This document shows positions 2,506-46,850 of a stretch of 64,000 nucleotides of DNA, in pieces. Made by a program: the position numbers and the translations under genes. The DNA comes from Pseudomonadota bacterium (GTDB lineage Bacteria; Pseudomonadota; Gammaproteobacteria; Steroidobacterales; Steroidobacteraceae): contig JAJZDX010000002.1 of the NCBI GenBank assembly GCA_021805865.1, positions 1 to 64,000 of the forward strand, given 5' to 3'. Under the pieces are notes generated by a model. It was not told the origin of the DNA, searched no databases, and saw only the letters and a program-made list of their open reading frames with translations. How positions within the stretch are numbered: position 1 is the first letter of the stretch; every line of letters starts with the position of its first letter.

Positions 2506-3222
2506 ATGTCGGAACTTTGGCTGCGTTCATATGTGCGTTCGGGCGTGCGGGTCGCCTCGGCGGCCCTGCTGGCCATGGCCTGTGGGTCGCTCGGTGCCTC
2601 GGCATCGGCCCAGCCGTCGCCGGTGGCCAACGCCCGGCTGGGCAGGGTCATCGGATATACCTGTCTCGGGTGCCACGGCATTGTGGGCTATCGAAACGCC
2701 TACCCGAACTATGCCGTACCACGGCTGCGCGGTCAGCATGCGCAATATCTCATCGACGCCCTCAAGGAATACCGCAGCGGTGCGCGGGCCTATCCGACCA
2801 TGCATCTGCAGGCGCTGTCGCTGTCCCTGCAGCAGATCGTCGATGTGGCCACCTACCTGGCCGGCAAGCCGGTGACGAGCGCGACGCCGGTGGCCCTGTC
2901 GCAAGTGCCGAAAGCGGCACGCCTGTGCACCTCCTGTCACGGCAGCGACGGCATCGGAGTGTCGCCGATGTATCCGACGCTGGCCGGTCAGCACGAGAGC
3001 TACCTGATCCGTGCTCTGCGCGAATACCAGACGGGGTACCGTAAGAATCCCATCATGAACGCCATGGCCGCTTCCCTGACTGCGGCGGAAATCCGGACAG
3101 TGGCCACCTACTTCAGCCACCTGAGTCCGGGGCTGCACACCGTGCCGCGGCCCTACTTCAGCTGGACCGCCAAGCCACTGCACTTGAGCGAGCGATTCAT
3201 CCGGGACAGCACTGCGCGGTAG
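2506..3222 (+). CDS. Periplasmic dihaem c-type cytochrome (cytochrome c4-like)
   Basis: This 238-residue protein has an N-terminal export signal ending near ASASAQ and two class I cytochrome c modules. Haem-binding sites are CLGCH (C53, C56, H57) and CTSCH (C141, C144, H145). Likely axial methionines follow in PTM (M99) and NPIM (M184) or nearby. Each module has the GQHAQYLIDALKEYRSGAR / GQHESYLIRALREYQTGYR helix characteristic of cytochrome c4 and related two-domain carriers. It should shuttle electrons in the periplasm, perhaps to a terminal oxidase. I chose the ATG at 2506, which has GGAG upstream, over a TTG eight codons earlier. It is divergent from dtd. Confidence 0.9.
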   Translation: MSELWLRSYVRSGVRVASAALLAMACGSLGASASAQPSPVANARLGRVIGYTCLGCHGIVGYRNAYPNYAVPRLRGQHAQYLIDALKEYRSGARAYPTMHLQALSLSLQQIVDVATYLAGKPVTSATPVALSQVPKAARLCTSCHGSDGIGVSPMYPTLAGQHESYLIRALREYQTGYRKNPIMNAMAASLTAAEIRTVATYFSHLSPGLHTVPRPYFSWTAKPLHLSERFIRDSTAR

Positions 3223-24572: not shown

Positions 24573-26405
24573 ATGTGTGGAATCGTCGGAGCGATCGCCG
24601 AGCGGAACATCGTCCCCATCCTGATGGAAGGCCTGCGGCGGCTGGAATACCGCGGCTATGACTCGGCGGGCCTGGCGGTCATCGAGTCCGGCAGGCTCGC
24701 CCGTCTGCGCACCCTCGGCAAGGTGAAGATGCTCGAGGAGGCGCTCGAGAGCACTCCGGTCGGCGGCCGGATCGGGATCGCTCACACCCGTTGGGCGACC
24801 CACGGAGTGCCCAGCGAGCGAAACGCCCATCCCCATGTCTCCCTCGGGGGCCTCGCCATCGTCCACAACGGCATCATCGAGAACCACGAGGAATTGCGTG
24901 AGGACCTGAAGCGCCGCGGCTACCGTTTCGATTCCGAGACCGACACCGAAGTCGTCGCGCACCGCATCCATTACCACCTCGACACGCTGGGCGATCTGTT
25001 CAAGGCCGTGCGCGCCACCGTGGCGGAGCTCGAAGGGGCCTACGCGCTGGCGGTGGTGAGCGAGCAGGACCCCGAGCGCCTGGTGACGGCGCGTGAAGGC
25101 TGTCCGGTGGTGATCGGCCTCGGGGTGGAAGAGAACTTCGTCGCCTCCGACGTCGCGGCGCTGCTGCCGGTGACGCGGCGATTCCAGTTCCTAGAGGAGG
25201 GCGATGTCGCCGAGATCCGCCGCAAGGCGGTGCGCGTCATCGACCGCGACGGCAACATCGCCGAGCGACCCGTGCGCGAGAGCGAGCTCAGCGCCGATGC
25301 CGCCGAGAAAGGACCTTTCCGCCATTTCATGCTGAAGGAGATCCACGAGCAGCCGCGGGCCGTTGCCGAAACCCTGGCCGAGCGCGTGGCCAACGGGAGG
25401 CTCTTCGAGGCCGCTTTCGGCCCGGCCGCGACCGATGTGTTCAAGCGGGTCGCCGCAGTGCACATCGTGGCCTGCGGGACCAGCTATCACGCGGCCTCCG
25501 TGGCCCGCTACTTCATCGAGCAGATCTGCCGCATCCCCTGCGCCGTCGACATCGCCAGCGAATATCGCTACCGCAATCCGCTGGTGCCGCCCAATTCGCT
25601 GTTCGTCACCATCTCCCAGTCCGGCGAGACCGCGGACACGCTGGCGGCGCTGCGCCTCGCCAGGCAGTCGGGCTATCTGTCGGCGCTCGCCATCTGCAAC
25701 GTGCCGGAAAGCTCGCTGGTGCGAGAGTCGGAGCTGGTCATGCTGACGCGCGCCGGCCCCGAGATCGGTGTGGCCTCGACCAAGGCGTTCACCACCCAGC
25801 TCGCCGCGCTGTCCATGCTGACCGTCGCGCTCGCCCGCCACCACGGTGCCGATGCCGAGCGCGAGCATGGCCTGGTGACGCGCCTCGTGGAGCTGCCCGG
25901 GCTCATCGAAAAAGCGCTCACCCTGGACCCGGTCATCCACCGGCTCGCCGAGCGATTCGCCGACAAGCACCATGCGCTGTTCCTCGGCCGCGGGGCGCTG
26001 TATCCCATCGCCATGGAGGGCGCGTTGAAGCTCAAGGAGATCTCCTACATCCACGCCGAGAGCTATCCCGCGGGCGAGCTCAAGCACGGGCCGCTGGCGT
26101 TGGTGGATGTCGACATGCCGGTGATCGCGGTGGCGCCAAACAACGACCTGCTGGAGAAGCTCAAATCCAACCTCATGGAGGTCCGTGCCCGCGGCGGCGA
26201 ACTCATCGTGTTCGCCGACCCGGAGTCGGGGATCCGGCCAAGCGACGGTGTCACCGTGATCGAGATGCCGAAGCACGTGACCTGGTTCCAGGCCCCCGCC
26301 ATCTATACCGTGCCGCTGCAGCTGCTCGCCTACCACGTCGCCGTGCTCAAGGGCACGGACGTCGATCAGCCCAGGAATCTCGCGAAGAGCGTCACGGTGG
26401 AGTGA
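24573..26405 (+). CDS. glmS: Glutamine–fructose-6-phosphate aminotransferase (isomerising)
   Basis: GlmS makes glucosamine-6-phosphate, the first step to UDP-GlcNAc. The 610-residue protein has the N-terminal glutaminase domain with nucleophile Cys2 (MCGIVGAI), HTRWATHG and HNGIIENH. Two SIS domains follow ([39 protein letters not shown]). The C-terminus ends [11 protein letters not shown], identical to the tail that encodes the TnsD recognition site of Tn7 in E. coli. A Tn7-like end lies 25 bp past the stop. No glmS ribozyme-like leader was recognised. Confidence 0.98.
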
Positions 26406-26430
26406 CGCGGGTCTAGAAAAGGACGATTGT
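26366..26430 (+). other. attTn7-type attachment site (glmS 3' end plus 25 bp)
   Basis: The last codons of glmS ([11 protein letters not shown]) form the conserved DNA segment read by TnsD-type target selectors. The 25 bp after the TGA (26406–26430) lead directly to a TGTG transposon terminus at 26431. In E. coli Tn7 inserts about 25 bp after the glmS stop, so the spacing matches. The bases just before 26431 would be one copy of a 5-bp target duplication (GATTGT neighbourhood). The partner copy was not found. Confidence 0.7.
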
Positions 26431-26520
26431 TGTGCGCCTGAATTAAAGTCGTTACCCCGAAATTAAAGACCTTACCTGGGAATTAAAGTCGTTACCTCGG
26501 AAACAAAGTCATTTCCCTGG
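26431..26520 (+). mobile_element. Tn7-like transposon end (glmS-proximal, right-end type)
   Basis: The end begins TGTGCGCCTGAATTAAAGTC. From memory, Tn7's right end begins TGTGGGCGGACAATAAAGTC: the same TGTG tip and the AAAGTC of the first TnsB site at the same offset. Four tandem 20-bp repeats follow, as expected for closely packed TnsB sites of a right end. Tn7 right ends lie nearest glmS, as here. No tnsABCDE genes and no opposite end are visible in the window, so this is either a remnant or one border of an element whose other border has decayed or moved. Confidence 0.7.
26441..26520 (+). repeat. Four tandem 20-bp repeats (putative TnsB-type binding sites)
   Basis: Units start exactly at 26441, 26461, 26481 and 26501. 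The consensus is AATTAAAGTCGTTACCTCGG. Units 1 and 3 are nearly identical, unit 2 has AAAGACC, and unit 4 is more diverged (AAACAAAGTCATTTCC). A fifth, barely recognisable unit may begin at 26521. The repeats are strikingly AT-rich against the GC-rich surroundings. Confidence 0.9.
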
Positions 26521-26697
26521 AACTCGTCATAAATCACCACAACAACGACAGCGAGCCCAGCATCCGCCCGCATATGGGACCTTTGCTGCATGAACACGGA
26601 ATAGCCGCCTATCTTCGGGTGACCACTCACACTCTGCGCAGGCGGATCCGCAGCGGAAAAATTTTCCCACCTATCGCTATTCGCGGGAAGCAGTACT
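26521..26697. other. Non-coding accessory DNA inside the Tn7-like end
   Basis: There is no convincing reading frame between the 20-bp repeats and the palindrome at 26698. A short AT-rich run (AAAAATTTTCCC at about 26657) and a GC-rich stretch alternate. Together with the repeats this makes a 330-bp gene-free interval after glmS. Confidence 0.5.
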
Positions 26698-26741
26698 GTT
26701 CGCGGTAGGGGCTGCTCGCAAGAGCAGTCCCTACCGCGAAC
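26698..26741. repeat. 44-bp near-perfect palindrome (REP-like) at a gene breakpoint
   Basis: The 20-bp arms 26698–26717 and 26722–26741 pair with one mismatch around the loop GCAA; the arm begins GTTCGCGGTAGGGG. The GTAGG...GCGAAC flavour resembles REP elements of Pseudomonas and Xanthomonadales. It ends exactly where homology to an EAL domain begins. No second copy was noticed in this window. Confidence 0.75.
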
Positions 26742-27228
26742 GATCATCGAGGCCGGCGGCAGGCAGAAGGAAATCCTTCCGGCGCTCTCGGTGCTGCGGG
26801 CCGCTGGCGTGAGGGTGGCGCTCGATGACTTCGGGATCGGCTACTCCTCCTTCGGGCGCCTCGCGGAGCTGCCGATCGATGTTCCGAAGGTCGGCAAATC
26901 GTTCATCTCTGCACTCACCCGCCCGCGCACGCCGGCGCACCTGGTGCGTATACGTCGTATCCTCGCGACCCTGGCGTCGCTCTCGCACATTTGCAACTTC
27001 ACCACCATCGCGGAAGGGGTGGAAACCCCGGCTGCACTCGAGGCAGTCCGCGAACTCGGCTTCGACCAGTCGCAGGGGTACCTGCACAGCCCCGCGGTTG
27101 ACGCGCAGGCCTTCGCTCGCTTCCTGCGGCCGCGCCCTGCGCCGGCTGGCGGCGCGCGTGCCGCCCCGTGCGTGAGCCGCGCGGAGCGCACCGTGGCTTC
27201 GGACGAGCAGCCTGTGGTGCATCCATGA
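26740..27228 (+). pseudogene. Truncated EAL-domain protein (C-terminal part of a c-di-GMP phosphodiesterase)
   Basis: The frame reads from TIIEAGGRQKEI through ALDDFGIGYSSFGRLAELPID to AEGVETPAALEAVRELGF and QSQGYLHSPA. This is the second half of an EAL domain. The N-terminal half, including the EAL motif, is absent, and homology begins at the edge of the 44-bp palindrome. The motif normally reading LKIDRSF is PKVGKSF, so a conserved Asp is Gly. It is therefore very unlikely to hydrolyse c-di-GMP. A GTG at 26791 could still start a 145-residue product. The TGA overlaps the next gene's ATG (27225). Confidence 0.75.
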
Positions 27229-27854
27229 ACGAGTCGCTGATCTCCCGTTGCGATGCGCTTGCGGAGCGAATCGTGCTGCCCGGATTCACCGTCTCGCGAG
27301 AGGACTTTCTCAACACGCCCCTGCCGCACCTGACGCGTACGCTCGATCAGGAGCCCCGTCTTGCGATCTCGATCCTCTCCGCCCTGATGCTCTTCGTAAC
27401 GCGCCACGAGCGAGCAGGGCCTCACGGTGCGGTCCAGGACCCGACCCTCAAGGGCGTATACCGGCTCATCGGCACCGGCGGGCTGCTGCGCCCAGAGCTT
27501 CCCTTTGAAGCCCGCACGGTCGACACAGAGGTGCCGCTTGCGATGTTCTCGCAGCTGCGCGAGATCGCACGGGCAGGCGCCTGTGGTGGCGAATCGCTCG
27601 AGCGTCAGGTCGAGTGGGGCCAGGTCGAGGCGACGATGAACGAGGCGATCGCGTTGCGGGACGATCAGCGCGCCATGGTGGTCTCGATCATCCGCTGCGT
27701 GCTCGAGCGGCGCGTCGAAGGCGGGCTCAGGGCGCCGGAGCGCTCGCAGGGGCCGTGCATGCCCGTAGGGATTTCTTGCCCCGCCGCAGGTCGGCAACCG
27801 CGCCGAAATAAACGCTCTGCGGGATTGAACAATGTCTCGGGAGTTTCTGGGTAA
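27225..27854 (+). CDS. Conserved-looking hypothetical protein downstream of the EAL remnant
   Basis: This 209-residue soluble protein is not recognised. It is helical in character, with ISILSALMLFVTRHERAG and AIALRDDQRAMVVSIIRCVLERR, and has no signal peptide or membrane segment. The ATG is coupled to the end of the EAL remnant by an ATGA overlap, suggesting the two were once an operon. The last 40 residues (after about 170) are Pro/Arg/Ser-rich and look like run-on sequence, so the original gene may have ended differently. Confidence 0.5.
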   Translation: MNESLISRCDALAERIVLPGFTVSREDFLNTPLPHLTRTLDQEPRLAISILSALMLFVTRHERAGPHGAVQDPTLKGVYRLIGTGGLLRPELPFEARTVDTEVPLAMFSQLREIARAGACGGESLERQVEWGQVEATMNEAIALRDDQRAMVVSIIRCVLERRVEGGLRAPERSQGPCMPVGISCPAAGRQPRRNKRSAGLNNVSGVSG

Positions 27855-27895
27855 CTTGCCCGTCAGTAGGCGGGAGTATAAAATATAATAACTGG

Positions 27896-28527
27896 ATGAA
27901 TGTGCGGAATGCGCGCAAAGAGGTGGACGCTGTGCTGTTGCTGATCGACCAGGACAACGTGCTCGCGGATTTCACCCGAGTGATCTACACGGAACTGTGC
28001 GCCCGCGGTCACAGGGAGCGCGCCCTGCCGCCGGCCAAGCAGACGACCTGCCCGCTCGAGGACCATATCCGCCGGAACTCCTCGAAGAGCTGAAGGCGAT
28101 CTACGCCGTCGAAGGGTTCTTTCGCAGTCTGCACCCGATCGAGGGGGGCGATTCAGGCGGTCAAGGAAATGGTGGCCGAGGGGATTGACGTGCGAATCTG
28201 CACGCACCCGACCAGGCCTATCGCAACTGCGTCGGAGAGAAGTACGAGTGGGTCGATCGCCACTTGGGCGCTGAGTTCACCACCCGCATGATCTTGACGC
28301 GTGACAAAACCATCATCGCGGATGCGCTGATCGATGACAATCCGGACATCACGGGATCGTGCACGCCATCGTGGCGGCACATCGTGTTCGATCAGCCCTA
28401 CAACCGCTCCATGGCCGGCGCGCGTCTTCGGAGATGGGAGGACTGGCGGGAGGTCCTCGAGCCGCCGAGAGTGGATCTGGCGCGTCTGGCCAGGGCGCCG
28501 CGAAGCATTGTCGGCATTGGCATCTAG
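27896..28527 (+). pseudogene. Frameshifted 5'(3')-deoxyribonucleotidase (NT5C/HAD family)
   Basis: Three frames together spell one HAD phosphatase that dephosphorylates deoxynucleoside monophosphates. The pieces are LLLIDQDNVLADFTRVIYTEL (HAD motif I, DxDxVLADF); then PELLEELKAIYAVEGFFRSL; then AVKEMVAEGIDVRICTHPT; then GEKYEWVDRHLGAEF, MILTRDKTIIADALIDDNPD and HIVFDQPYN. Frame changes fall near 28070, 28147 (beside a six-G run) and 28225. At least two of the three are not at homopolymers, so real decay is more likely than sequencing error alone. Such enzymes are common in phages. Confidence 0.8.
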
Positions 28528-28557
28528 GCGGAATCTGTGTCCCCAGTGGAGAACTGA

Positions 28558-29202
28558 ATGCGGATCCTTAAGCTCCTGATTGTGCTGTTGGCGGCCTCTT
28601 TATTGGGGGCTTGCAGTTCCAGAATGACGGCCAACGATGCGAATTTTGCGGCCGCAATCAATAAAAAGCTCGGCTGTTTCCCAGTCGCGGCCCCCTTAAC
28701 GGGGCCAAAAACTGTCGTGAGAGTGTCCGCAGGCAACCGCGCGGCCATTGCGCAACTGAATGCGCTTGCCAGCGCGGGGATGCTCAAGGCCTCGACGCGG
28801 ATAGTCAGGAAGCGCAATCAGCACAGCATGTGCAGCCCCTGCGATCCAAATCCGTACTGCAACCCACCTGGGAGCGGCCCCGGCAGGCCGACCGCGAAGA
28901 AGCCCGGGTGCTTTCACTCGGTTACCGAGCGCGTCTATTTGGTAACACGACGTGGCGCGGCTGCGATGAAACAAGCCCTGGGGCTCATGTGTGTCGGACA
29001 CGAGAAGGTAGCTGGCATCAAATCCTTTACGAAACCGACCGCTTTTGGGCCCGAGACCGTCTCAAGGGTAACGTATACCTATCGGGTCACGAAGCTGCCG
29101 GCATGGACGAAGTCGAAGGACGTGGAAACGGCGTTCGGGCTCGGTAAGGCCCATTCGGCGCGTACGACGCTTGTTCTGACAAATCACGGATGGGCGGATT
29201 AG
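28558..29202 (+). CDS. Putative lipoprotein of unknown function
   Basis: This 214-residue protein starts MRILKLLIVLLAASLLGACSS, a lipoprotein signal with lipobox LGAC (lipidated Cys19). A Cys-containing loop (CSPCDPNPYCNPPG, about 92–105) lies in the middle. The second half (RVYLVTRRGAAAMKQALGL and VTYTYRVTKLPAWTKSKDV) looks beta-rich. No family is recognised. Base composition is less GC-rich than the surrounding housekeeping genes, which fits acquisition. It lies between two broken phage-type nucleotide-metabolism genes. Confidence 0.7.
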   Translation: MRILKLLIVLLAASLLGACSSRMTANDANFAAAINKKLGCFPVAAPLTGPKTVVRVSAGNRAAIAQLNALASAGMLKASTRIVRKRNQHSMCSPCDPNPYCNPPGSGPGRPTAKKPGCFHSVTERVYLVTRRGAAAMKQALGLMCVGHEKVAGIKSFTKPTAFGPETVSRVTYTYRVTKLPAWTKSKDVETAFGLGKAHSARTTLVLTNHGWAD

Positions 29203-29440
29203 AGTCCTGCCCCGACTCGTCTACGCCCCGTTCCTGAGGGAGCTCGCCGCGTCTCGGTCCTTGCGGGCTTTTCAGCCCGCGCGGACCTTTGAGGTGGTTC
29301 GCGGTTCAACGTGGGGCGGCGCCTGCGCTCGGATCGAGATCGCTGAATTCGGGTCGGCAGATCTACCGCGGGGTTCCATCTGGAAAATCTGTCGAGCGGG
29401 TGCCTATAGGGACGCAGGTCCTTATTCAAACAGGCATTGC

Positions 29441-29990
29441 ATGCGACAGTACTTGGATACTTTACGCCTTGTGCTTGAGGAGGGCACCTGGCTCGAAAGC
29501 CGCACCGGCATCCGGCGGATCAGCTTCCCGGGGGTGTCCATGCGGTTCGATCTGGCGAAAGGCTTCCCGGCCGTCACGACGCGCAAGCTCGCCTTCAAGT
29601 CTGCGATCGGGGAATTGTGCGCGTTGGTCGCCGGCGCGACCAGTGCGCGGGACTTCCGGGAGAACGGGTCGCCCGTATGGGGCGCCAATGCGAACCAGAA
29701 TCAGGCCTGGCTCAACAACCCTTACCGGGCCGGCGAGGACGATCTCGGCCCGATCTACGGGGCGCAGTGGCGCGGATGGGACGCGTACAAGGTCCTGAGA
29801 ACGGTCGACAGCGCGAAAGTGGCGGAGAGATGCCCTCTTCGACGCGGCTACAAGAATCTGGCGTATTTCGACAACACCGCTAAGGTCGACCTCGAGGGTC
29901 CCCTGCTCACGGTCTTCGGAGTCTACCACCGCAAGGTGGACCAGCTTCGGGAATGCCTCGACATAAATCTGCGCGACCCTCCCGCGCTTC
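29441..29990 (+). pseudogene. Truncated thymidylate synthase / dCMP-hydroxymethylase-type gene
   Basis: MRQYLDTLRLVLEEGTW, RTGIRRISFPG, MRFDLAKGFPAVTTRKLAFKS, GELCALVAG, NPYRAGEDDLGPIYGAQWRGW and VDQLRECLD match the first half of ThyA-family enzymes. The NPYR...DLGPIYG spacing resembles phage and large-subfamily members more than E. coli ThyA. Homology ends at about 29990. The remaining open frame to 30355 is unrelated, and the catalytic Cys segment (PCH) and C-terminus are missing. The product cannot be active. The break lies at the edge of a large inverted-repeat structure (29998–30060). Confidence 0.8.
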
Positions 29991-29997
29991 CTACAAG

Positions 29998-30060
29998 AGC
30001 TTCGGCCCGGCCTGCGGCCGGTCAGGCCGCACGACCGCTTCGCGGTCGTGCGGACCGAAG
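29998..30060. repeat. Long inverted-repeat structure at the thyA breakpoint
   Basis: Inner arms 30027–30038 and 30042–30053 form a perfect 12-bp stem with a TTC loop. Outer arms CTTCGGCCC and GGACCGAAG pair with one mismatch, giving a branched hairpin of about 60 bp. Its position at the end of the ThyA homology parallels the palindrome at the EAL breakpoint. Confidence 0.65.
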
Positions 30061-30218
30061 ACGATATAGAGATCGAAAGGCGGAAAAGGCCGGAGGAACG
30101 GTCAACATCAGTGATGGACCTCGGGCCCTGTTCATCAGCGAACGTGAAAAAAAAGCCGTCCAGCCCCATCAAATACGATGGCCAGGCTCACAGGTGGTAT
30201 CAGAAGGCCAAATTTGGA

Positions 30219-31439
30219 CTAGATCGCCGCACGTTCAATCTGCCTGTCGATTGCTTCGCGGATTTCTGCGGGCAACAAGTCCTTGGCAACGTGATCACGC
30301 CAGGCATCCACGATGTGGGCCGATGTCTCCTGCGCAATCGTCCATAGCTGGTTGACCGGTAGATTGGCCTTTTCGGCGAAGCGGCGCACCTGATCGGGCA
30401 TGATATGGCCGATGTTATTCTCGCCACCGAAGTTGAGGGCCAGATTGTCTTTCGGGAGGTAGGGGACCGTCGCCACCAGATCATAGGCTGGTGACAGAAT
30501 GGGAACCCGGCTGTCCGGGTAAAGCACGGTCCAGTTCTTGAGGTGCATATCACCATTGCCGGTCAGCACCGTGAAGACCAACCGCCGCATGAATTCGTGA
30601 ACAGCGGCTTCACCCGCCTCGGCGGCGAGCACGGCGGCGATATTGGCGTAATTGCGCCCTCTATACTTGTCGTCGGGATAGATGCCGAACACTTGGGCGA
30701 AGTCTTCCATGTGCACGCGGGCTCCGTCTGCCTGGCGGTCGAAACGGCGGACGGCAAGCGCCTGACCTCCTACACGGTTTACGTCTTCAGGCAGGCCAGC
30801 GATCTCGTCGACCGGCAGCAGGCGGATTTCAGGCACATCGATACCGATGCTGCGTGCAAGCTCCATCATCGCGTATTCGTTTTCAGCGATGGCCGGATAA
30901 TGGGACGAGGGCAACTTAACGATCCAGGAACCGCCGATACCGCTGGCCGGTATCGTCAGATGTCCCTTGCCGTTCACAAGGGCGGAAAACTTCATCTGCA
31001 CGCCTGCCAGCGAGAATTTCAGCAGGGCGGGGGCACTATCCGTACCGCTATCTTTCTCGACCTCCGGCTTCGGCGCCCATTTGTCGTCGAGCGGCTCGAC
31101 CGTGACAGCGCCGGGCAGATCGGTGCCTAACTTCCAGAGGAGAATGAATTCCTGCCCGGGCTTCACGCCCGCTCTAGCAGCGAGGTAGTCGCGCAAGACA
31201 CCTTCCGGCAGCAGATTGGAAAAAAAGGCTGGCAGGCGCATCGCTGTCGGTTTGACCGTCGTCACCAAACCAGAGGCGCCCTTATAGGACAGGCTTAGCG
31301 TCGGGCGATGGGTGTCCTCGACATAGGCCTCATCGAAGACAAAGAGATATCTGTCACCGGAAAGGCGATTGATGACGCCGATCCGTTTGCCGTGAAGGAG
31401 AATGGCGAGCGCAGCCGGCTGATGGGCGGAGCCGGTCAT
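30219..31439 (-). CDS. hipA: HipA-family toxin kinase
   Basis: HipA toxins are serine/threonine kinases that inactivate a translation factor such as glutamyl-tRNA synthetase, causing growth arrest. This 406-residue protein has the N-terminal couple_hipA region (FFSNLLPEGVLRDYLAARAG). The nucleotide loop SLAGVQMKFS (143–152) and AVRRFDR follow. The catalytic GNGDMHLKNW has D297 and N302, and the metal-binding AYDL has D320. All key residues are intact, so it should be functional. It is encoded second in a 4-bp-overlapping operon with the antitoxin. GC content near its promoter drops sharply, consistent with acquisition. The 3' end lies about 160 bp from the inverted repeat at 30060. Confidence 0.92.
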   Translation of the reverse strand: MTGSAHQPAALAILLHGKRIGVINRLSGDRYLFVFDEAYVEDTHRPTLSLSYKGASGLVTTVKPTAMRLPAFFSNLLPEGVLRDYLAARAGVKPGQEFILLWKLGTDLPGAVTVEPLDDKWAPKPEVEKDSGTDSAPALLKFSLAGVQMKFSALVNGKGHLTIPASGIGGSWIVKLPSSHYPAIAENEYAMMELARSIGIDVPEIRLLPVDEIAGLPEDVNRVGGQALAVRRFDRQADGARVHMEDFAQVFGIYPDDKYRGRNYANIAAVLAAEAGEAAVHEFMRRLVFTVLTGNGDMHLKNWTVLYPDSRVPILSPAYDLVATVPYLPKDNLALNFGGENNIGHIMPDQVRRFAEKANLPVNQLWTIAQETSAHIVDAWRDHVAKDLLPAEIREAIDRQIERAAI

Positions 31440-31774
31440 GATGCGTCACCGTCATCATCGTCGTCGGCAGCATAGAGCGGGCGCTCGCTGGCTTTGCCCG
31501 TGTGGCTGTCACGCACTAGAGCGTTGACAGCAGGAACGAGGGACTGCGGCACCAGAACCAGATCCATGCCGAGCACCCGCACCAGATCAAGCAAGGTATC
31601 GAAGCGCGGCACAATGCGGCCAGTCTCGATACCGGAGATATGGGTCTGGGGAAGAGCTGCTTGCTTTCCGACCTCGGCCTGGCTCCAGCCACGGCGAAGG
31701 CGGGCCGCCTTAAGCTCTCGGCTGATGGTCTCAGGAAGGCGGTCCATTCGGACCGGCCTCATATGTGATTTCAT
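31436..31774 (-). CDS. hipB: HipB-family antitoxin, XRE HTH regulator
   Basis: This 112-residue protein has a Cro/CI-type HTH (about residues 15–70: LKAARLRRGWSQAEVGKQAALPQTHISGIETGR). An unstructured acidic C-terminal tail (YAADDDDDGDAS) follows, resembling the degradation-prone tails of antitoxins. It should bind HipA and repress its own operon. The ATG at 31774 has AAAGG at a reasonable distance. Downstream in-frame ATGs (31762, 31747) are alternatives. The stop overlaps the hipA start by 4 bp. Confidence 0.9.
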   Translation of the reverse strand: MKSHMRPVRMDRLPETISRELKAARLRRGWSQAEVGKQAALPQTHISGIETGRIVPRFDTLLDLVRVLGMDLVLVPQSLVPAVNALVRDSHTGKASERPLYAADDDDDGDAS

Positions 31775-31794
31775 CTATATCAACCTTTATAGAT
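31773..31794 (-). promoter_or_regulatory. Operator palindrome at the hipBA start
   Basis: ATCTATA–N8–TATAGAT is a perfect 7+7 bp palindrome covering the ribosome-binding site and first base of hipB, the spacing style of HipB operators. A further pair, CGCATATA (31800–31807) and TATATGCG (31840–31847), flanks an AT-rich promoter-like stretch just upstream. Autorepression by HipB is inferred. Confidence 0.6.
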
Positions 31795-31879
31795 AATATC
31801 GCATATAGATGATCGCGTTTCAATATGTGATTTTATATATATATGCGTGAAATAGCTAAATTTACATATAATGGCTGGC

Positions 31880-33045
31880 CAGCGGTCGCATAGCGCAGCG
31901 GTGGTCTCGCACGACGTGGCATTTCTCTAATGACCAGGGTGGGTTCTCTACCGATCCGTTTTGCGGGAAGGGTGGTTTCTCTAAGTAATTCCGCTGAAAT
32001 CGAACCTACACGCCCAAAATTGACCTGCCGAAACTGCGCCGTGTGAGTTTTTACACAGCCTCGGCCGCACCCCGCCGGTCAGCGCCCAACGGGTTCATCG
32101 CGATGGAGCGCTGAGCGCGCCGCGCGATGCTGAAGCGCCTGCGTCAAACAGCGACCGTTCGCACTAACGGAAGATCGGTTGAGGAAGAGGGCTACCCGAA
32201 GTCATGCACAGGCCTCGGGGCAGGGCGCCTGCATTGCCCGCGTGCTTCTTGGAGGCGCCCGAGTGCAGCTGCTCAAAACAGAACGCCCAATGCGACGCCA
32301 CCGCCGATCAGCTCGTCTGCGTAAAGGGTCTCTTCGACTCCATGCGCGGCAATGAAGGCCAGGGGACCACCCGCTTTCGAGTCTGGGTTCCCTCGAGGAA
32401 GCCGGCGGTACTGCGGACAGCGCCAGCCGCGCTTGCAGGGCTTGACCGTCCGGTGCAGCTCTCACCCAGGGTACAGGAACTCCAAGTCCCTGACCTTCGC
32501 GCCCGTCAGGCGCAGATCATGCTCGGAAAACCAGCGTTGCTCGCGGGTCTTGGCTCCGCTCCGCCGATTGCCAGTCAACGGAAGGGATGAGGCCCGTGCG
32601 CTCGAACGGAATCAACCCTCCGGGTTCGCCGCCCCCCTCCTGAGCTACGCCCGGCCAAAGGATTGACCATCCCGGGCCCGCGTGCCCTTCCGTCGCGCTC
32701 CCTGGCGCATCCATGTCAGAAGGCTGCACTGCGATGAAGGCCGAGCTGTCATTGGGAGATGCGGATAGTGCCGATTTTACCCGACGCAACCGGCGCTTCC
32801 GCAATCACCGCCGACACAGCAACGCACGAGCATGTCGAACTCGGGAAACCCTCCCCTTCCTTGGCCCGACCAATGAGAAAAGTCATCGCATCTGGTCATG
32901 AGTCCGGTGCCTTGTCTGCCGGTGTGGAAAGTGAGGAGTCGCGCATGGAAGGATGATCGCTGATCCAATAAAAAGCGCAGCCCCATGCGGATGGCGTCCG
33001 CAGCGGCTGATCATAGTCAATAAACAACCCCAATAAGGAGTAATC
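31880..33045. other. 1.2-kb gene-free stretch between hipBA and the GloVer protein
   Basis: No reading frame here shows protein character. The first 200 bp contain a repeated TTCTCTA motif and AT-rich sequence. The middle is GC-rich with short fragments of possible decayed coding sequence; on minus, about 32300–32370 reads AAHGVEETLYADELIGGGVA. The last 50 bp lead into the next gene with an AAGGAG site. Confidence 0.5.
31916..31983 (+). repeat. Three-copy GTGG..TTCTCTA motif
   Basis: GTGGCATTTCTCTA (31916–31929), GTGGGTTCTCTA (31939–31950) and GTGGTTTCTCTA (31972–31983) are three spaced direct copies. Spaced short repeats of this kind are found at ends of some insertion sequences, but no transposase lies nearby. 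Confidence 0.5.
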
Positions 33046-34890
33046 ATGGCGATACGCGGTCGACCCTGCAGGCGAATAGCAGTCGTTATCCTGAGCTGTA
33101 CGGCAGCCTTCGGGCTTACCGCGTGCGGAGGCGGCGGCTCGACGAGCGGCTCCGCAACGGGGTCCGGCAGCGGTTCAGCGGCTGCGACGTACAGCATATC
33201 CGCCAAAATCACGGGCTTGACGGCCAATGGACTGTCTATGGATGCGAATGGGTCGGATATCTCGATCTCCGGCGGTGCGACCAGCGCAACACTCACGTCA
33301 GGTCTTGCTGACAGCACTGCCTTCACGGTATCCGTTGCGACGCAGCCGAGCGGAGAGGACTGCGCGGTCACCAACGGCTCCGGAACCATCTCCTCCGCCA
33401 ACGTCACCGATGTTTCCGTAAATTGCGGCTACACCGTATCCGGAACGATCACCGGTCTCGGCGCGGCGACCGGTCTTTCCCTATTGGCAAACGGGGCCTA
33501 TGCAACTCCTGTTGCGGCGAACTCAACCACCTTTACCATCGATTCCAGTTTCGCATCCGGCACCGCGTACGACGTGACTGCCGGCGCGGACCCGGTCGGC
33601 CTGCTGTGCATGCTGAGTCACAATACCGGCACCATCTCCTCCGCGGGGGTTGCCGGTGTCGAGGTAAACTGCGGGGCGCCGGCGGAGAAGGTGCTGTACA
33701 GCTTCCAGGGAATCCAGTCGAGCGCCGGGATCGCGGACGGAGAGTTTCCGGCCGGCAGCCTCGCTCCGGGCGGCACCGGCATGTATTACGGCACCACCTA
33801 CCTCGGCGGACCGGACGACTCCAGCAGTGGCGGCAATGGAACGTTATTCGAATACGATGTAGGCACGAATACGGAAAAAATCCTGTATGGATTCCCGACA
33901 GGCACCGATCTGCCCATCGATCCCGCGGGAAGCCTGATCCAGGCGAGCGATGGAAACTATTATGGCCTCGCGAGCGGCGGCACCGACAACGCAGGAGTGA
34001 TCTATCGGTTCGACCCCAGTACGGACACGGTCAGTACCGTTTACACGTTCACGGACGGAGCCGATGGGGGAAATCCGGAGAACGAGCTCATACAAGCCGC
34101 TGACGGAAACCTGTACGGCATCGCCTCGTCGGGCGGCGAATACGGCTACGGCGTGATATTCAGCTACAATCTGAGCACCGCTCAGGAATCCGTGCTGTAC
34201 TCGTTTCAGGGCTCCACGGACGGGGATCCGTCCTCGGCGGGACCGGGTGGCGGACCGCTGCTGCAGGCGTCCGATGGGAATCTGTACGGAACGGCCGGGA
34301 TGGGAGGAAGCGCGAGCTGCGGATGCGGCGTTCTGTTCGAATATAATCTGAAGACAGACACGTACTCCGTGCTGCACACGTTCACCGGCGGAACCGACGG
34401 CGCGTTTCCCCAGGGAAATCTGATTCAGGATGCCGGTGGAAACATCTACGGCGAGACGACATCCGGCGGAGATTCGTCGTGTGTGTTCCCCGGAATGCAG
34501 CCTGGGTGCGGCACCATATTCGAGTATGATCCGGGAACGAAACAGGAATCGGTCGTTCACGTGTTCGGTAGCGTCTCCGGCGACGGCCTGTATCCGAATA
34601 CCGGCATGATGATTGCCAGCGACGGAAACTTCTACGGTATGACCGGCAACGGCGGATCGACCACCGACGTGGCAACCTCCTATCCTGGAGACGGAACTGT
34701 CTTCCAGTTCAACCCGACAAGCGGTCAGGAAACGGTGCTGCATTCGTTCTCCGGGCCGCCGGATGGAACGTTTAGCGAGGGCGAGGGGGACCTCGTGCAG
34801 ATGTCGACCGGCGACCTGATCGGACTGACGACGGGCGGCGGAGCCGCGCCCGCGCCCAACGGAACCATTTTCGAGCTCTACCTCAAGTAG
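33046..34890 (+). CDS. Secreted GloVer-repeat (beta-propeller-like) lipoprotein
   Basis: This 614-residue protein has a signal ending in lipobox LTAC (Cys27) and a Gly/Ser linker. Two short Ig-like/beta modules (about 45–120 and 125–200) end in VNCG. About seven GloVer repeats of roughly 55–60 residues then follow, each with LIQASDGNLYG-type and G(V/T)(I/L)FEYD...VLYSF-type motifs. These repeats (TIGR03803 family) are thought to build a propeller and occur in surface proteins of soil bacteria. The start has AAGGAG five bases upstream. The ligand is unknown. Confidence 0.82.
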   Translation: MAIRGRPCRRIAVVILSCTAAFGLTACGGGGSTSGSATGSGSGSAAATYSISAKITGLTANGLSMDANGSDISISGGATSATLTSGLADSTAFTVSVATQPSGEDCAVTNGSGTISSANVTDVSVNCGYTVSGTITGLGAATGLSLLANGAYATPVAANSTTFTIDSSFASGTAYDVTAGADPVGLLCMLSHNTGTISSAGVAGVEVNCGAPAEKVLYSFQGIQSSAGIADGEFPAGSLAPGGTGMYYGTTYLGGPDDSSSGGNGTLFEYDVGTNTEKILYGFPTGTDLPIDPAGSLIQASDGNYYGLASGGTDNAGVIYRFDPSTDTVSTVYTFTDGADGGNPENELIQAADGNLYGIASSGGEYGYGVIFSYNLSTAQESVLYSFQGSTDGDPSSAGPGGGPLLQASDGNLYGTAGMGGSASCGCGVLFEYNLKTDTYSVLHTFTGGTDGAFPQGNLIQDAGGNIYGETTSGGDSSCVFPGMQPGCGTIFEYDPGTKQESVVHVFGSVSGDGLYPNTGMMIASDGNFYGMTGNGGSTTDVATSYPGDGTVFQFNPTSGQETVLHSFSGPPDGTFSEGEGDLVQMSTGDLIGLTTGGGAAPAPNGTIFELYLK

Positions 34891-36059
34891 CGAGAGAAGG
34901 TGCGACCGGGCGTCTGAGCGGCGCCCGGTCGCCGGCGAAGGTCGGGGGGGGTGGAGGATTTAAGAGAGAATGAAGAGCAGGAATGGACATGCGGCCGGGA
35001 CATTGGCGGGCAAGACCGGGAAAAAAAGAGCAGGCGCGAAAGGCAACGCTCATTGAGGATGCCACGGGATCAAAGTGGTGGTGACACGATGAAAAAATCT
35101 CCCGATTCTTGCGCCTTTCCGACCGCTGTGTGGGCGCGCGGCGCCTGTGCCGGCTCACCCGGCACGGGCGGTGGATCCGGCAGCTTCGGCGGGGGAACCG
35201 CCGTCTTCAACGCAATCTTCGGCCCGAGCATTCCCGGTGTCCTGGTGTTGGCGCGAGCATCGCACTCCGGGATGCTTTCGGACGAATAGGCCGGGAGGTG
35301 CTCCGATGGAAGGGCGCGAAGGGGAATCGCTCACGAGCATGCCCCAGCCGCTCCTTCACGTGCGGTTGGGGCCATGCGGATGAAGCCGCGAGGCGTTTAC
35401 GCTTTCCGCAGGCCTTTCCCCGCGTAAACGGCGTGCCCGGAGCCATGTCGTCATGGGAGGCAGCGGACAGCGCTGCGGAAAAGTGCCCGAGCGGCGCCCG
35501 GCGTTTGCCGTCGCGCTGTCCGGTGGCTGCCCGATTCCCCATTTTCGGAATCTCCCTGACGCTGCCACAAGGCGGCCGCAGTCCGCAGTCCGCGTCCGTC
35601 GGCGCTCTATTCCCGGCTGACCGACGATACAGAGCGACGGCAGCTGCTCGCCTCCCGTCCCGAACTCCATGAAGCCGCGCGGCGCGTGAGTCGCTCCAGA
35701 CCCATCTGCGGTTGCTCACACACGGCTGGCGGGGGCGTTCGCCACATCATGGCGAAATGACTATACTTTCAGACGAGCATCCTGATGTCGAGCGCGCGTC
35801 CGTGGTTGGCCGGGATTCGGGTCACGACTGCGGATTGACCGTTCGGCGGCGGCGGAGCTCCGCGGTCGGCGCGCGCTCAGGAGGCGGCTTCGATTCATGC
35901 CCACAAATGAAGTCTTGATTTCGACAAATGGTGTTTCCGAGAGCCTGAAAGACCAATAGTCCTTCCCCGACCGGCAGGTAAGGGATTGACGCGGCGGTTC
36001 GGCCTTCCGGCAGCGGCCGGAGAGTCTGAGTCGCCGGCCACACGGAGATCACGATCGCC
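34891..36059. other. 1.2-kb stretch without a convincing gene
   Basis: The stretch is rich in G runs just after the GloVer gene. A possible 66-residue Gly-rich reading frame starts at 35089 (MKKSPDSCAF, weak ribosome site), and a 53-residue one at 35757 (MTILSDEHPD). Neither is recognisable. An inverted repeat CGTTTACGC (35394–35402) / GCGTAAACG (35422–35430) lies in the middle. The stretch is probably decayed accessory DNA marking the far side of the post-glmS region. Confidence 0.45.
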
Positions 36060-38788: not shown

Positions 38789-39384
38789 CGGCGGCGTTAC
38801 TTCGCCCGATGCCGCGCCGTGACTCCCCGGCGGTCTTCGGAGGGCCGCCCCTGCGTTCCCGGGCGTGGCGGGATCGCGCTGGACCTGACCCGTGCTCATC
38901 GAGCGCTGCCGGGCTGTGGCGCCCGGCAGCGCTTCGCGCTCATCCTTCGGCAAGCGTGACCGTGACAGCGGACGAGCCCGACCGGGCGTGAACGTCAGTC
39001 CTCAAGGCCTGGGAAGTGCTCCAGGAGAGGCTTTCGACCGCTCGGCCCGTGCGTGGCCCGGAAACTCCTCGTGCTAAAGTCCGGGCCTGCCTGCACCTCG
39101 GCGATCCGCCATGCAGTCGGCCCCTCGCGCCGGGCCATCGCCGGCGCCGCCGCTTCTGCCTCGCTGATTGCTCCGGTGGCGGGGCGCATCCTAAACAGTC
39201 ATGCCGGTTCGCTGCGCGGGCGCGACTCAACCATATTCCCCGCCCGCGCCGGGATTTTGACCCCGGGCCGCACGGGGGGGAATGATCTCACGAAGCGACA
39301 TCAGGAGGGCGCGATGACTCGGACCTCGAGACTGCTCGGGCAATTTGGGCGATCAGGTGACGACTCTGATCGGATCTGGCAACA
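38789..39384. other. Intergenic, no gene seen
   Basis: These 596 bp hold no recognisable coding sequence. Apart from the perfect 13-bp hairpin at 38902–38933, only low-complexity GC-rich sequence is seen. Confidence 0.5.
38902..38933 (+). terminator. Perfect 13-bp hairpin downstream of the ACT-like gene
   Basis: AGCGCTGCCGGGC (38902–38914) pairs perfectly with 38921–38933 around a 6-nt loop. It is about 115 bp past the ACT-like stop and lacks a T-tract. It is a likely transcript 3'-end structure. Confidence 0.45.
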
Positions 39385-44445: not shown

Positions 44446-45822
44446 TCAGGCCCGCTTCGTCGCGCGATGCCCGGAGGCTTCTCGAGCCGTTCCGCCCGCC
44501 AGTCGGGCGTGCAGGTCGTACACATCGGAGGCTGTGATCTCGACGTCGGCCCATTCGCCGGCGCGCAGTCCCGTCCCACCCTGTATCCGCACCACACCGT
44601 CGATCTCGGGCGCATCGGCCTCACTGCGGGCGACGGCCCCGTGCTCATCGGCTGAATCCACGAGCACACGCAGCCGCTGCCCGATCCGCCGTTGCAGGCG
44701 CCGGGCGCTGATGCGGGCCGCGCGCTCCATGAAGCGCGTGTAGCGTTCTTCCTGGACTTCCGGGGGCACATGATCGGCCATGTCGTTGGCGGCGGCGCCT
44801 TCCACGGGCGAGTACTTGAAGCAGCCCACGCGATCGAGCTGCGCCTCATCGAGCCACTCGAGCAGTGCCTCGAACTCCGCTTCGGTCTCGCCGGGGAAAC
44901 CGACGATGAACGTGCTGCGCAGCGTCAGGTCGGGACACTGCTGCCGCCATGCGCGTATGCGTGCCAGCACGTCTTGCGCATGGGCCGGGCGGCGCATGCG
45001 CTTCAAAACGGCCGGGCTTGCATGCTGGAACGGGATGTCGAGGTAGGGCAGCACGCGCCGCTCGGCCATCAGCGCAATGACCTCGTCCACGTGGGGATAG
45101 GGATAGACGTAATGGAACCGTATCCAGATGCCCAGAGTGCCCAGGGCGCGCGCGAGGTCGATGAAGCGAGTCCGGTACTGGTTGTCGCGCCACGAGCCGA
45201 AGGCGTAGCGGATGTCCGCGCCGTAGGCACTGGTGTCTTGAGAGATGACCAGGATCTCCTTCACGCCTGCGGCCGCGAGCCGCTCGGCTTCCCCGAGCAC
45301 CTCGTCGATCCGGCGGCTCGAGAGCCTGCCGCGCAGCGCCGGAATGATGCAGAAGCTGCAGGAGTTGTTGCAGCCCTCGGAGATCTTGAGGTACGCGTAG
45401 TGGCGCGGCGTCAGGCGAACACCCTGTGGAGGCACCAGATCGAGGAACGGATCGTGTTGAGGCGGCAGGTGCTCGTGGATGGCCCCGATGACTTCGGCAT
45501 GGGTCTGAGGGCCGGTGACCTTCAGAACGCGCGGATGTCGCTCCAGGATGCGTTCGGGACGAGCGCCGAGACAGCCGGTCACAATGACACGCCCGTTGCG
45601 CTGCAGTGCCTCACCGATGGTCTCGAGCGATTCGTCGACCGCCGCATCGATGAAGCCGCAGGTGTTGACCACCACCAGATCGGCCTGCTCGTACGTGGCC
45701 GAGATCTCATACCCTTCGGCTCGCAGCGTGGTCAGGATGCGCTCGGAGTCCACCAGCGCCTTGGGGCAACCCAGGCTGGCGAAGCCGATTCTGGGGACGC
45801 GGCGCCGATTGGCAGGTGGCAT
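44446..45822 (-). CDS. rimO: Ribosomal protein S12 methylthiotransferase RimO
   Basis: This radical-SAM enzyme adds a methylthio group to Asp88 of ribosomal protein S12. The 458-residue product has the N-terminal UPF0004 cluster cysteines ([34 protein letters not shown]). The radical-SAM CxxxCxxC is in [17 protein letters not shown], and a C-terminal TRAM domain ends the protein. [12 protein letters not shown] and RTRFI-type features separate it from MiaB. The frame opens 26 codons upstream. [14 protein letters not shown] at 45822 is the sensible start. Confidence 0.95.
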
Positions 45823-45918
45823 GCAGCGGGTTCCGGGGTGGCGTGAGGAGCGGGGAGTGCAAAGGCGCGCAAGCCTACCTACGCGCCCTCGGCTCCGCAA
45901 TACAGGCGCTGCGGGCGC

Positions 45919-46694: not shown

Positions 46695-46850
46695 TTGCAA
46701 GCACGACGCGCCTTCGACCCGCTAGGCGATCTTTCCGGCCCGCGAGAGAGGGGCAACATTTGCAAGCACGACGCGCCTTCGACCCGCTAGGCGATCTTTC
46801 CGGCCCGCGAGAGAGGGGCAACATTTGCAAGCACGACGCGCCTTCGACCC
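46695..46850 (+). repeat. 65-bp tandem repeat, two full copies plus a partial third
   Basis: Copies 46696–46760 and 46761–46825 are identical. The first 25 nt recur at 46826–46850. The unit contains GAGAGGGG, TTG and the first eight codons (QARRAFDP) of the downstream methyltransferase, so its translation start region is present three times. The period is not a multiple of three, so the copies are in different frames. Confidence 0.95.

Follow-up and report, generated by a model that had tools for sequence, protein, structure and literature searches.

Transposons of the Tn7 type have termini of the form TGT...ACA, and in the laboratory mini-Tn7 system cargo placed between Tn7 ends is moved by TnsABCD acting in trans. 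According to the portions of the published reports available here, Tn7 has four TnsB sites in its right end and three in its left end (PMC8649781), packed at the right and spaced at the left (PMC11406308), and it inserts about 20 bp past the stop codon of glmS with 5-bp duplications (PMC2918618). Here, we examined a window of 64,000 nucleotides (the whole stretch analyzed, which is part of contig C29 in a draft genome of 4.68 Mb and 83 contigs) from a member of the Steroidobacteraceae (Gammaproteobacteria). Our best explanation of the region next to glmS, which we consider likely, is that positions 26431-35905 (9,475 bp, plus strand) represent a cargo-only Tn7-type element with both ends, the right one nearest glmS, and that it was most likely inserted by TnsABCD encoded elsewhere.

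Like Tn7, this element lies past glmS with its right end nearest the gene, and has four packed sites at the right and three spaced sites at the left; a 5-bp duplication is also found in some of its relatives. It differs from Tn7 in that no tns genes were detected in it, in a site consensus close to AATTAAAGTCGTTACC with a 20-bp pitch, in the left sites being about 65 bp apart in its relatives, and in the stacking of elements at the site in some genomes. Unlike laboratory mini-Tn7, it is natural, has natural cargo and would depend on a putative helper. Boundaries marked by end arrays and defence genes in the cargo are features shared with the Tn7-like elements of a tnsB-anchored survey, at least as described in the available part of that report (PMC8649781).

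Attachment site and ends of the element

The attachment gene glmS (24573-26405, plus strand) is a 610-aa ORF, and its 3' stretch was matched in 50 of the 58 genomes of the genus. A preliminary description of this DNA had placed a TGTG terminus 25 bp past the glmS stop, and this proved correct: the TGA occupies 26403-26405 and TGTGCGCC begins at 26431. In the Tn7 family, too, elements lie about 20-25 bp beyond the stop, oriented so that the right end is closest to glmS. The 5 bp just outside the right end are ATTGT (26426-26430). When the Tn7 position (attTn7 +23 to +58, in the accessible part of PMC2918618) is transferred to this locus, the TnsD-binding stretch is predicted at 26370-26405 (plus strand), at the 3' end of glmS. 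A rimO-like host gene (44446-45900, minus strand; Radical_SAM, UPF0004 and TRAM_2) lies on the far side of the variable region; such a gene is also found downstream of glmS in three other genomes (G001, G043 and G039) and, about 16 kb off, in G031.

The right end (26431-26530, plus strand) consists of a TGT terminus and four packed sites in the same orientation: R1 (AAAGTCGTTACC, 26445-26456), R2 (AAAGACCTTACC, 26465-26476), R3 (AAAGTCGTTACC, 26485-26496) and R4 (AAAGTCATTTCC, 26505-26516). These AAAGTC-type 12-mers at a 20-bp pitch (Tandem Repeats Finder score 93) agree with the four tandem 20-bp repeats noticed previously, and have the form AAAGTCNTTNCC, one of the four with a mismatch. Allowing one mismatch, AAAGTCNTTNCC had eight matches in the window, four of them in the right end, versus 1.22 expected, a number reached by none of 100 shuffles of the window. 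A group of about four closely packed sites, here putatively of TnsB type, is typical of right ends in the Tn7 family. The first AAAGTC lies 14 bp from the terminus, which we take to be the offset of the first TnsB site in the Tn7 right end. With a right-end profile the segment scored 127.8 bits, a non-independent value because the 11 training sequences include the window's own.

Plain string searches of the window for a left end gave nothing real, because this end is decayed. An inverted partner was first obtained from G029 and G045: its sites are on the opposite strand at intervals of about 65 bp, and its terminus reads ...CCCACA. We used a left-end profile based on six ends (G045, G048, G006, G039, contig C27 of G029 and the MAG JOPF141), with the window excluded. 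At full sensitivity, this profile matched positions 35907-35736 of the window on the minus strand (50.3 bits, E 5.8e-15), and the terminus GCCCACA ends at 35905. The best null score was 5.2 bits (20 dinucleotide shuffles and the reversed window), and the match still reached at least 42.7 bits when the six training sequences were left out one at a time. The matching inverted end for which the preliminary description had proposed a search is therefore located within the window (35736-35905, minus strand). It contains three spaced sites on the minus strand: L1 (35880-35891) matches the consensus at 8 of 12 positions, and L2 (35820-35831) and L3 (35753-35764) at 9 of 12. The corresponding values for five further left ends are 11-12 of 12 positions at the first and second sites and 8-12 of 12 at the third. 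The site offsets are 14, 74 and 141 in the window versus about 14, 79 and 144 in four other genomes. Judged by its score against the null and by its site matches, the left end is real but decayed; an inverted left end with three spaced sites is again a Tn7-family trait, and the two termini are of the TGT...ACA type. The region had originally been described as the right border of an element or remnant. The right end stands, while a border without a partner is ruled out by the left-end profile match.

The difference between a decayed left end and well-kept right sites counts against our best explanation, since the two ends may stem from different insertions. The locus could be a composite, in which the right end of a younger element that had lost its left end was joined by deletion to an older left end at 35905. 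Besides the unequal preservation of the sites (8-9 of 12 positions at the left), the differing 5-mers outside the two ends (AATGA at 35906-35910, unlike ATTGT) and a breakpoint at about 26700 would agree with such an origin, which we nevertheless regard as unlikely: the ends are correctly oriented to each other, and there is just one right end before the left end at 35905. The scores of 127.8 and 50.3 bits are not fairly comparable in this respect, since the window's right end is in its training set and the left end is not.

The flank after the left end (35906-35967, plus strand) is a putative empty-site sequence, 82.5% identical over 63 bp to G034, where the counterpart begins about 20 bp past the glmS stop. 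G034 looks like an empty site, because the window's flank past the left end matches its post-glmS DNA; this flank in G034 carries weak site-like repeats. In G029, the DNA that follows the left end looks similar to the window's flank when aligned, with no BLAST match at E 0.01. Weak repeats of the form GACAAATAGTCTTTCC were also observed at 35911-35967 of the window and at about 2680-2741 of locus L198, and may be a far older right end, from a different Tn7-like lineage.

Cargo, transposition genes and an autonomous relative

A segment of about 240 bp comprising right-end and subterminal sequence (26465-26703, plus strand) is common to an Acidiphilium-labelled contig of another MAG (L123; 88.8% DNA identity). 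The similarity ends at a breakpoint with a 44-bp inverted repeat (26698-26741), and this repeat has a single 22-bp partial match elsewhere in the genome. The interior is rearranged near 26700, which counts against our best explanation. An ORF at 26487-26708 was considered as an HTH gene and rejected (Pfam 0.0027, below the cut-off); it is not regarded as a gene because the shared DNA is 88.8% identical and the frame only 58.6% identical at the protein level.

The cargo includes an EAL-domain gene without its front half (26745-27228, plus strand; Pfam EAL 1e-21, profile positions 132-235 of 236) and a thymidylate synthase-like ORF with a partial match (29261-30355, plus strand; Pfam 4.8e-27, positions 1-117 of 266). 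It also contains a HipA-like toxin gene (30219-31439, minus strand; HipA_C 2.4e-52, Couple_hipA 5.7e-22), adjoined by a HipB-like HTH antitoxin gene (31436-31774, minus strand; HTH_31 9.2e-14), for which the name HipB rests on the position beside HipA. The ORF at 33046-34890 (plus strand) had no Pfam match and by eye encodes a lipoprotein-like protein; partly similar proteins were found, with low-complexity masking off, on contigs of G048 (C43) and G028 (C293). Eight ORFs of the element were compared with Pfam, and no cas family was matched. The cargo of other elements and right-end contigs includes type I or type II restriction-modification genes, a STAND ATPase, an RmuC protein and a DUF5615 protein. 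Further along the window, a perfect 65-bp tandem repeat of 2.4 copies was observed at 46695-46850.

Queries with 14 Tns proteins, drawn from four element types, gave no match (E 0.01) inside seven elements of the genus, those of the window, G045, G029, G039, G036, G041 and G006. As neither tnsABC nor tnsD was matched in it, the window element does not show the gene content of an autonomous transposon. One possibility is that this Tn7-type element was once autonomous and lost the tns genes where it lies, leaving fossil ends, with no movement in trans. The decayed left end, the unequal flanking 5-mers, the rearrangement near 26700 and the partial EAL and thymidylate synthase genes are all compatible with such decay. 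On the other hand, the 14 queries detected no tns fragment in any of the seven two-ended elements of the genus, and an element shared by G029 and G045 is 99.1% identical versus 84% for the glmS ends, with a perfect 5-bp duplication at the flanks of one copy; we think in-place loss improbable.

Any absence of genes is provisional because the compared genomes are drafts. Neither TniQ nor a TnsB of the autonomous type was detected in the draft assembly that contains the window. A TnsA match in it fell below the cut-off and was rejected, the 922-aa ORF concerned reading by eye as a restriction-helicase protein. TnsB of the autonomous type was not found in any of the 58 genus genomes, which counts against our best explanation. 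A Mu-transpos_C search gave no match anywhere, and this proves little because the control genomes gave none either. Two short contigs of the window's genome (C56 and C61; L260 and L259) were seen to carry two copies of a weak rve-type integrase ORF of 611 aa, adjoined on C56 by an AAA_22 ATPase; these may be a source of transposase or helper.

TniQ was detected in 15 of the 58 genomes, in 14 of them over the cut-off. Eleven TniQ loci (L101-L106 and L108-L112) had no paired AAAGTC sites, only single scattered AAAGTC-like matches. Elements with TnsABC and an 802-aa TniQ (G041, G048 and G010; TnsABC in G005) were thought unlikely as helpers, because their tniQ-side end has different repeats by eye and they lie beside an nrdJ-like gene. 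In three of these genomes (G048, G041 and G010; L101, L102 and L103), the gene beside the element appears by eye to be an nrdJ-like ribonucleotide reductase gene, which is possibly a distinct attachment site; TniQ and Mu-transpos_C were confirmed at L101, and the terminal repeats at L101-L103 are unlike AAAGTC. A separate observation concerns L111 and L112 (G056 and G049), where a 929-aa TnsB-like ORF, which by eye resembles a TnsA-TnsB fusion, is followed by TnsC-like and TniQ ORFs; a TnsA family search had no match in these two genomes. A TnsB-like match on contig C190 of G039 was discarded, as it was gone once low-complexity masking was applied.

An autonomous element with the same right-end layout was identified at glmS in a Burkholderiales MAG (CAMFGY010000002.1; L285 and L286). 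It is 33.7 kb long, and its order is right end, restriction-modification genes, tnsA, tnsB, tnsC, tnsD, more cargo and left end. Pfam matches were obtained for TnsA (PF08722, 3.1e-6), TnsC (TniB, 4.9e-17) and TnsD (9.7e-38). TnsB had no Pfam match, and within a PDB set its best match was Tn7 TnsB (7pik, 3e-75; next best 7.5e-12); the best match of TnsD in this set was Tn7 TnsD (8glu, 6.1e-24). The window element resembles this relative in the AAAGTC right sites at 20 bp, the glmS position and the spaced left sites, which in the relative are 66 and 55 bp apart; the relative is flanked by the 5-bp duplication TTTGC. Unlike the window element, the relative is autonomous, with TnsABCD and restriction-modification cargo. 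Since the TnsB of this like-ended TnsABCD element is nearest to Tn7 TnsB among solved structures, the comparison suggests, via one element, that the AAAGTC end type belongs to the Tn7 clade; the repeat type, initially considered impossible to place in a named subfamily, can now be tentatively placed through it. When the TnsD of this element was searched against 369 genomes of the class at E <=1e-20, two matches were found (31-33% identical).

Distribution, movement and stacking

Of the 50 genus genomes with a glmS match, we dropped G019 and G011 (stop unreadable) and G037 (contig edge), which left 47 readable loci. Judged by eye from 12-mers with at most three mismatches, the right end is present at 17 of these loci and absent at 30, with G034 counted as element-free despite the weak site-like repeats in its flank. 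The distance from the glmS stop to the first site is 36-39 bp in the 17 carriers. A TGT terminus can be read in 16 of them, G031 having sites without TGT. The interiors differ between many carriers; shared ones were seen in G035 and G039 (87% over 901 bp) and in G006 and G041 (84% over 613 bp). This comparison identifies the right-end feature as inserted DNA and not as something native to glmS, since it occurs at some loci and not at others and the interiors vary among carriers. The earlier identification of a Tn7-type right end at attTn7 is thereby upheld; repeats and a TGTG terminus at the glmS of all relatives would have spoken against it, and the right end is missing at those 30 loci.

The paired-site pattern was found in 12 of the 58 genus genomes, and the same pattern reversed in none. 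Across 396 genomes of the order there were 12 carriers of the pattern, of which ten belong to the genus and two to a different genus within the family. A scan for two adjacent sites in the contigs of one genome per species (84,980 species) returned 64 matching stretches, among them the glmS locus of the Burkholderiales MAG described above. In the 21 that were examined, the matches in Chitinophagaceae and Marinomonas and most others outside glmS look like unrelated repeats or chance. Long 20-21-bp arrays with AAAGTC or AATGTC were observed in three Chitinophagaceae MAGs (L119, L121 and L164), probably minisatellites, and 32 of the 64 stretches come from one Prevotella MAG. The paired-site pattern was not found in viral contigs, and plasmids gave a single 29-bp match (E 3).

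Eight elements with both ends were available for inspection of target duplications, and the 5-bp duplication is perfect in three and the flanking 5-mers differ in five. Perfect duplications flank the elements of G029 (ATTAA, 3,193 bp), G039 (ATTGC, 12,552 bp) and the Burkholderiales MAG (TTTGC, 33,714 bp). The flanks are imperfect in G045 (ATTTT/ATTTG, 4 of 5 alike) and G036 (ATAAT/AAATT, 3 of 5 alike), and those of G041 and G006 have no clear duplication. The duplication suggested for the window itself was not found there (ATTGT/AATGA, 3 of 5 alike), as opposed to the three other elements. In G035 (contig C323, L020), a left end (122 bits) and not a right end faces glmS, apparently an inverted insertion; strain mixing is possible in this case, since G035 has three glmS-end contigs.

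Taken alone, the 20-bp repeats resemble those found close to the ends of other insertion sequences. It is nevertheless very improbable that they come from some unrelated insertion sequence or are native to the 3' region of glmS, considering their absence at 30 of 47 loci, the duplications delimited by both ends in G029 and G039, and the same kind of ends bounding a TnsABCD element.

Evidence of movement came from a 3.2-kb cargo-only element present in two diverged species, G029 and G045. The two copies are identical at 3,164 of 3,194 columns (99.1%), whereas the glmS 3' stretches are identical at only 360 of 428 positions (84.1%), and no adjoining homology was found beyond the left end. The arrival of this element in one or both species was probably recent, given the near-identity of the copies next to such different glmS ends, and such elements have probably moved recently with a helper in trans. 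The first 50 bp differ more (43 of 50 identical, 86%, versus 99.3% for the remainder), so recombination at the right-end tip has probably occurred too. It is conceivable that cargo-only elements spread altogether without transposition, by way of DNA uptake and subsequent homologous recombination of glmS loci, and the divergent tips, as if resident ends recombine, would suit this. However, the near-identity does not extend past the left terminus into the adjoining flanks, which are unrelated, and the duplications of G029 and G039 are perfect; we consider this route quite unlikely, and transposition in trans is the simplest reading of the near-identity.

Under our best explanation, the window element lost, or never had, transposition genes, and its cargo is the HipBA-like pair, the thymidylate synthase-like ORF and the lipoprotein-like ORF. 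TnsD would bind the 3' end of glmS and TnsC would bridge, and TnsA and TnsB, the latter presumably bound to the four packed right and three spaced left sites, would integrate the element about 25 bp beyond the stop, generating a 5-bp duplication. The helper would act in trans from a plasmid or a passing element, of which we favor an unbinned plasmid. The genus would hold a pool of cargo-only elements, and newcomers would enter at the same point; older elements would be pushed outward into stacks because new ones insert there.

Such stacks were observed. Another right end begins within about 5 bp of a left end in G045, G048, G039 and JOPF141; the right end that follows a left end in contig C27 of G029 lacks TGT. 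The window has a second, more decayed left-end match (39283-39377, minus strand, the same orientation; 24.1 bits, 12.7-30.3 bits in leave-one-out), likely the relic of an older element. Left-end scores fall with distance from glmS in the window (50.3 to 24.1 bits, neither in the training set) and in G045 (171.4 for a training sequence, then 35.3 and a non-significant 6.1 bits, E 0.11); in G039 the trend is reversed, the inner end scoring 55.9 bits and the outer one, a training sequence, 189.1 bits. Successive insertion at a fixed point with displacement of older elements fits these arrangements, and the score gradient is only suggestive. The stacks in G045, G048, G039 and JOPF141 suggest that target immunity is weak or evaded. 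One Tn7-like element inside or beside another, with multiple left and right ends, is already in print, according to the part of the survey available here (PMC8649781).

A broader reading is that natural mini-Tn7 satellites occur genus-wide: ends-only elements that carry toxin-antitoxin, restriction-modification and STAND ATPase cargo, depend on visiting TnsABCD of the Tn7 clade and leave an ordered insertion record beside glmS. They would pile up at one site because older ends no longer confer immunity. This generalization is tentative, and we place it slightly below an even chance.

Implications for cargo at the glmS site

No description of naturally non-autonomous glmS-targeting Tn7 elements was found in the open-access full text searched, and the accessible parts of PMC10969869, PMC3401170 and PMC10293859 have nothing on them. 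The novelty lies in the cargo-only Tn7-type element, in a genus where the matching transposase could not be found, the stacking as such being already known. Ends-only elements would be invisible to the tnsB-anchored survey because, in the part of that report available here, it scanned outward from tnsB (PMC8649781). If such elements are common, the defence and toxin-antitoxin cargo that moves through attTn7 is underestimated. The stacks are also a natural test of target immunity, with related ends lying side by side where Tn7 should exclude itself.
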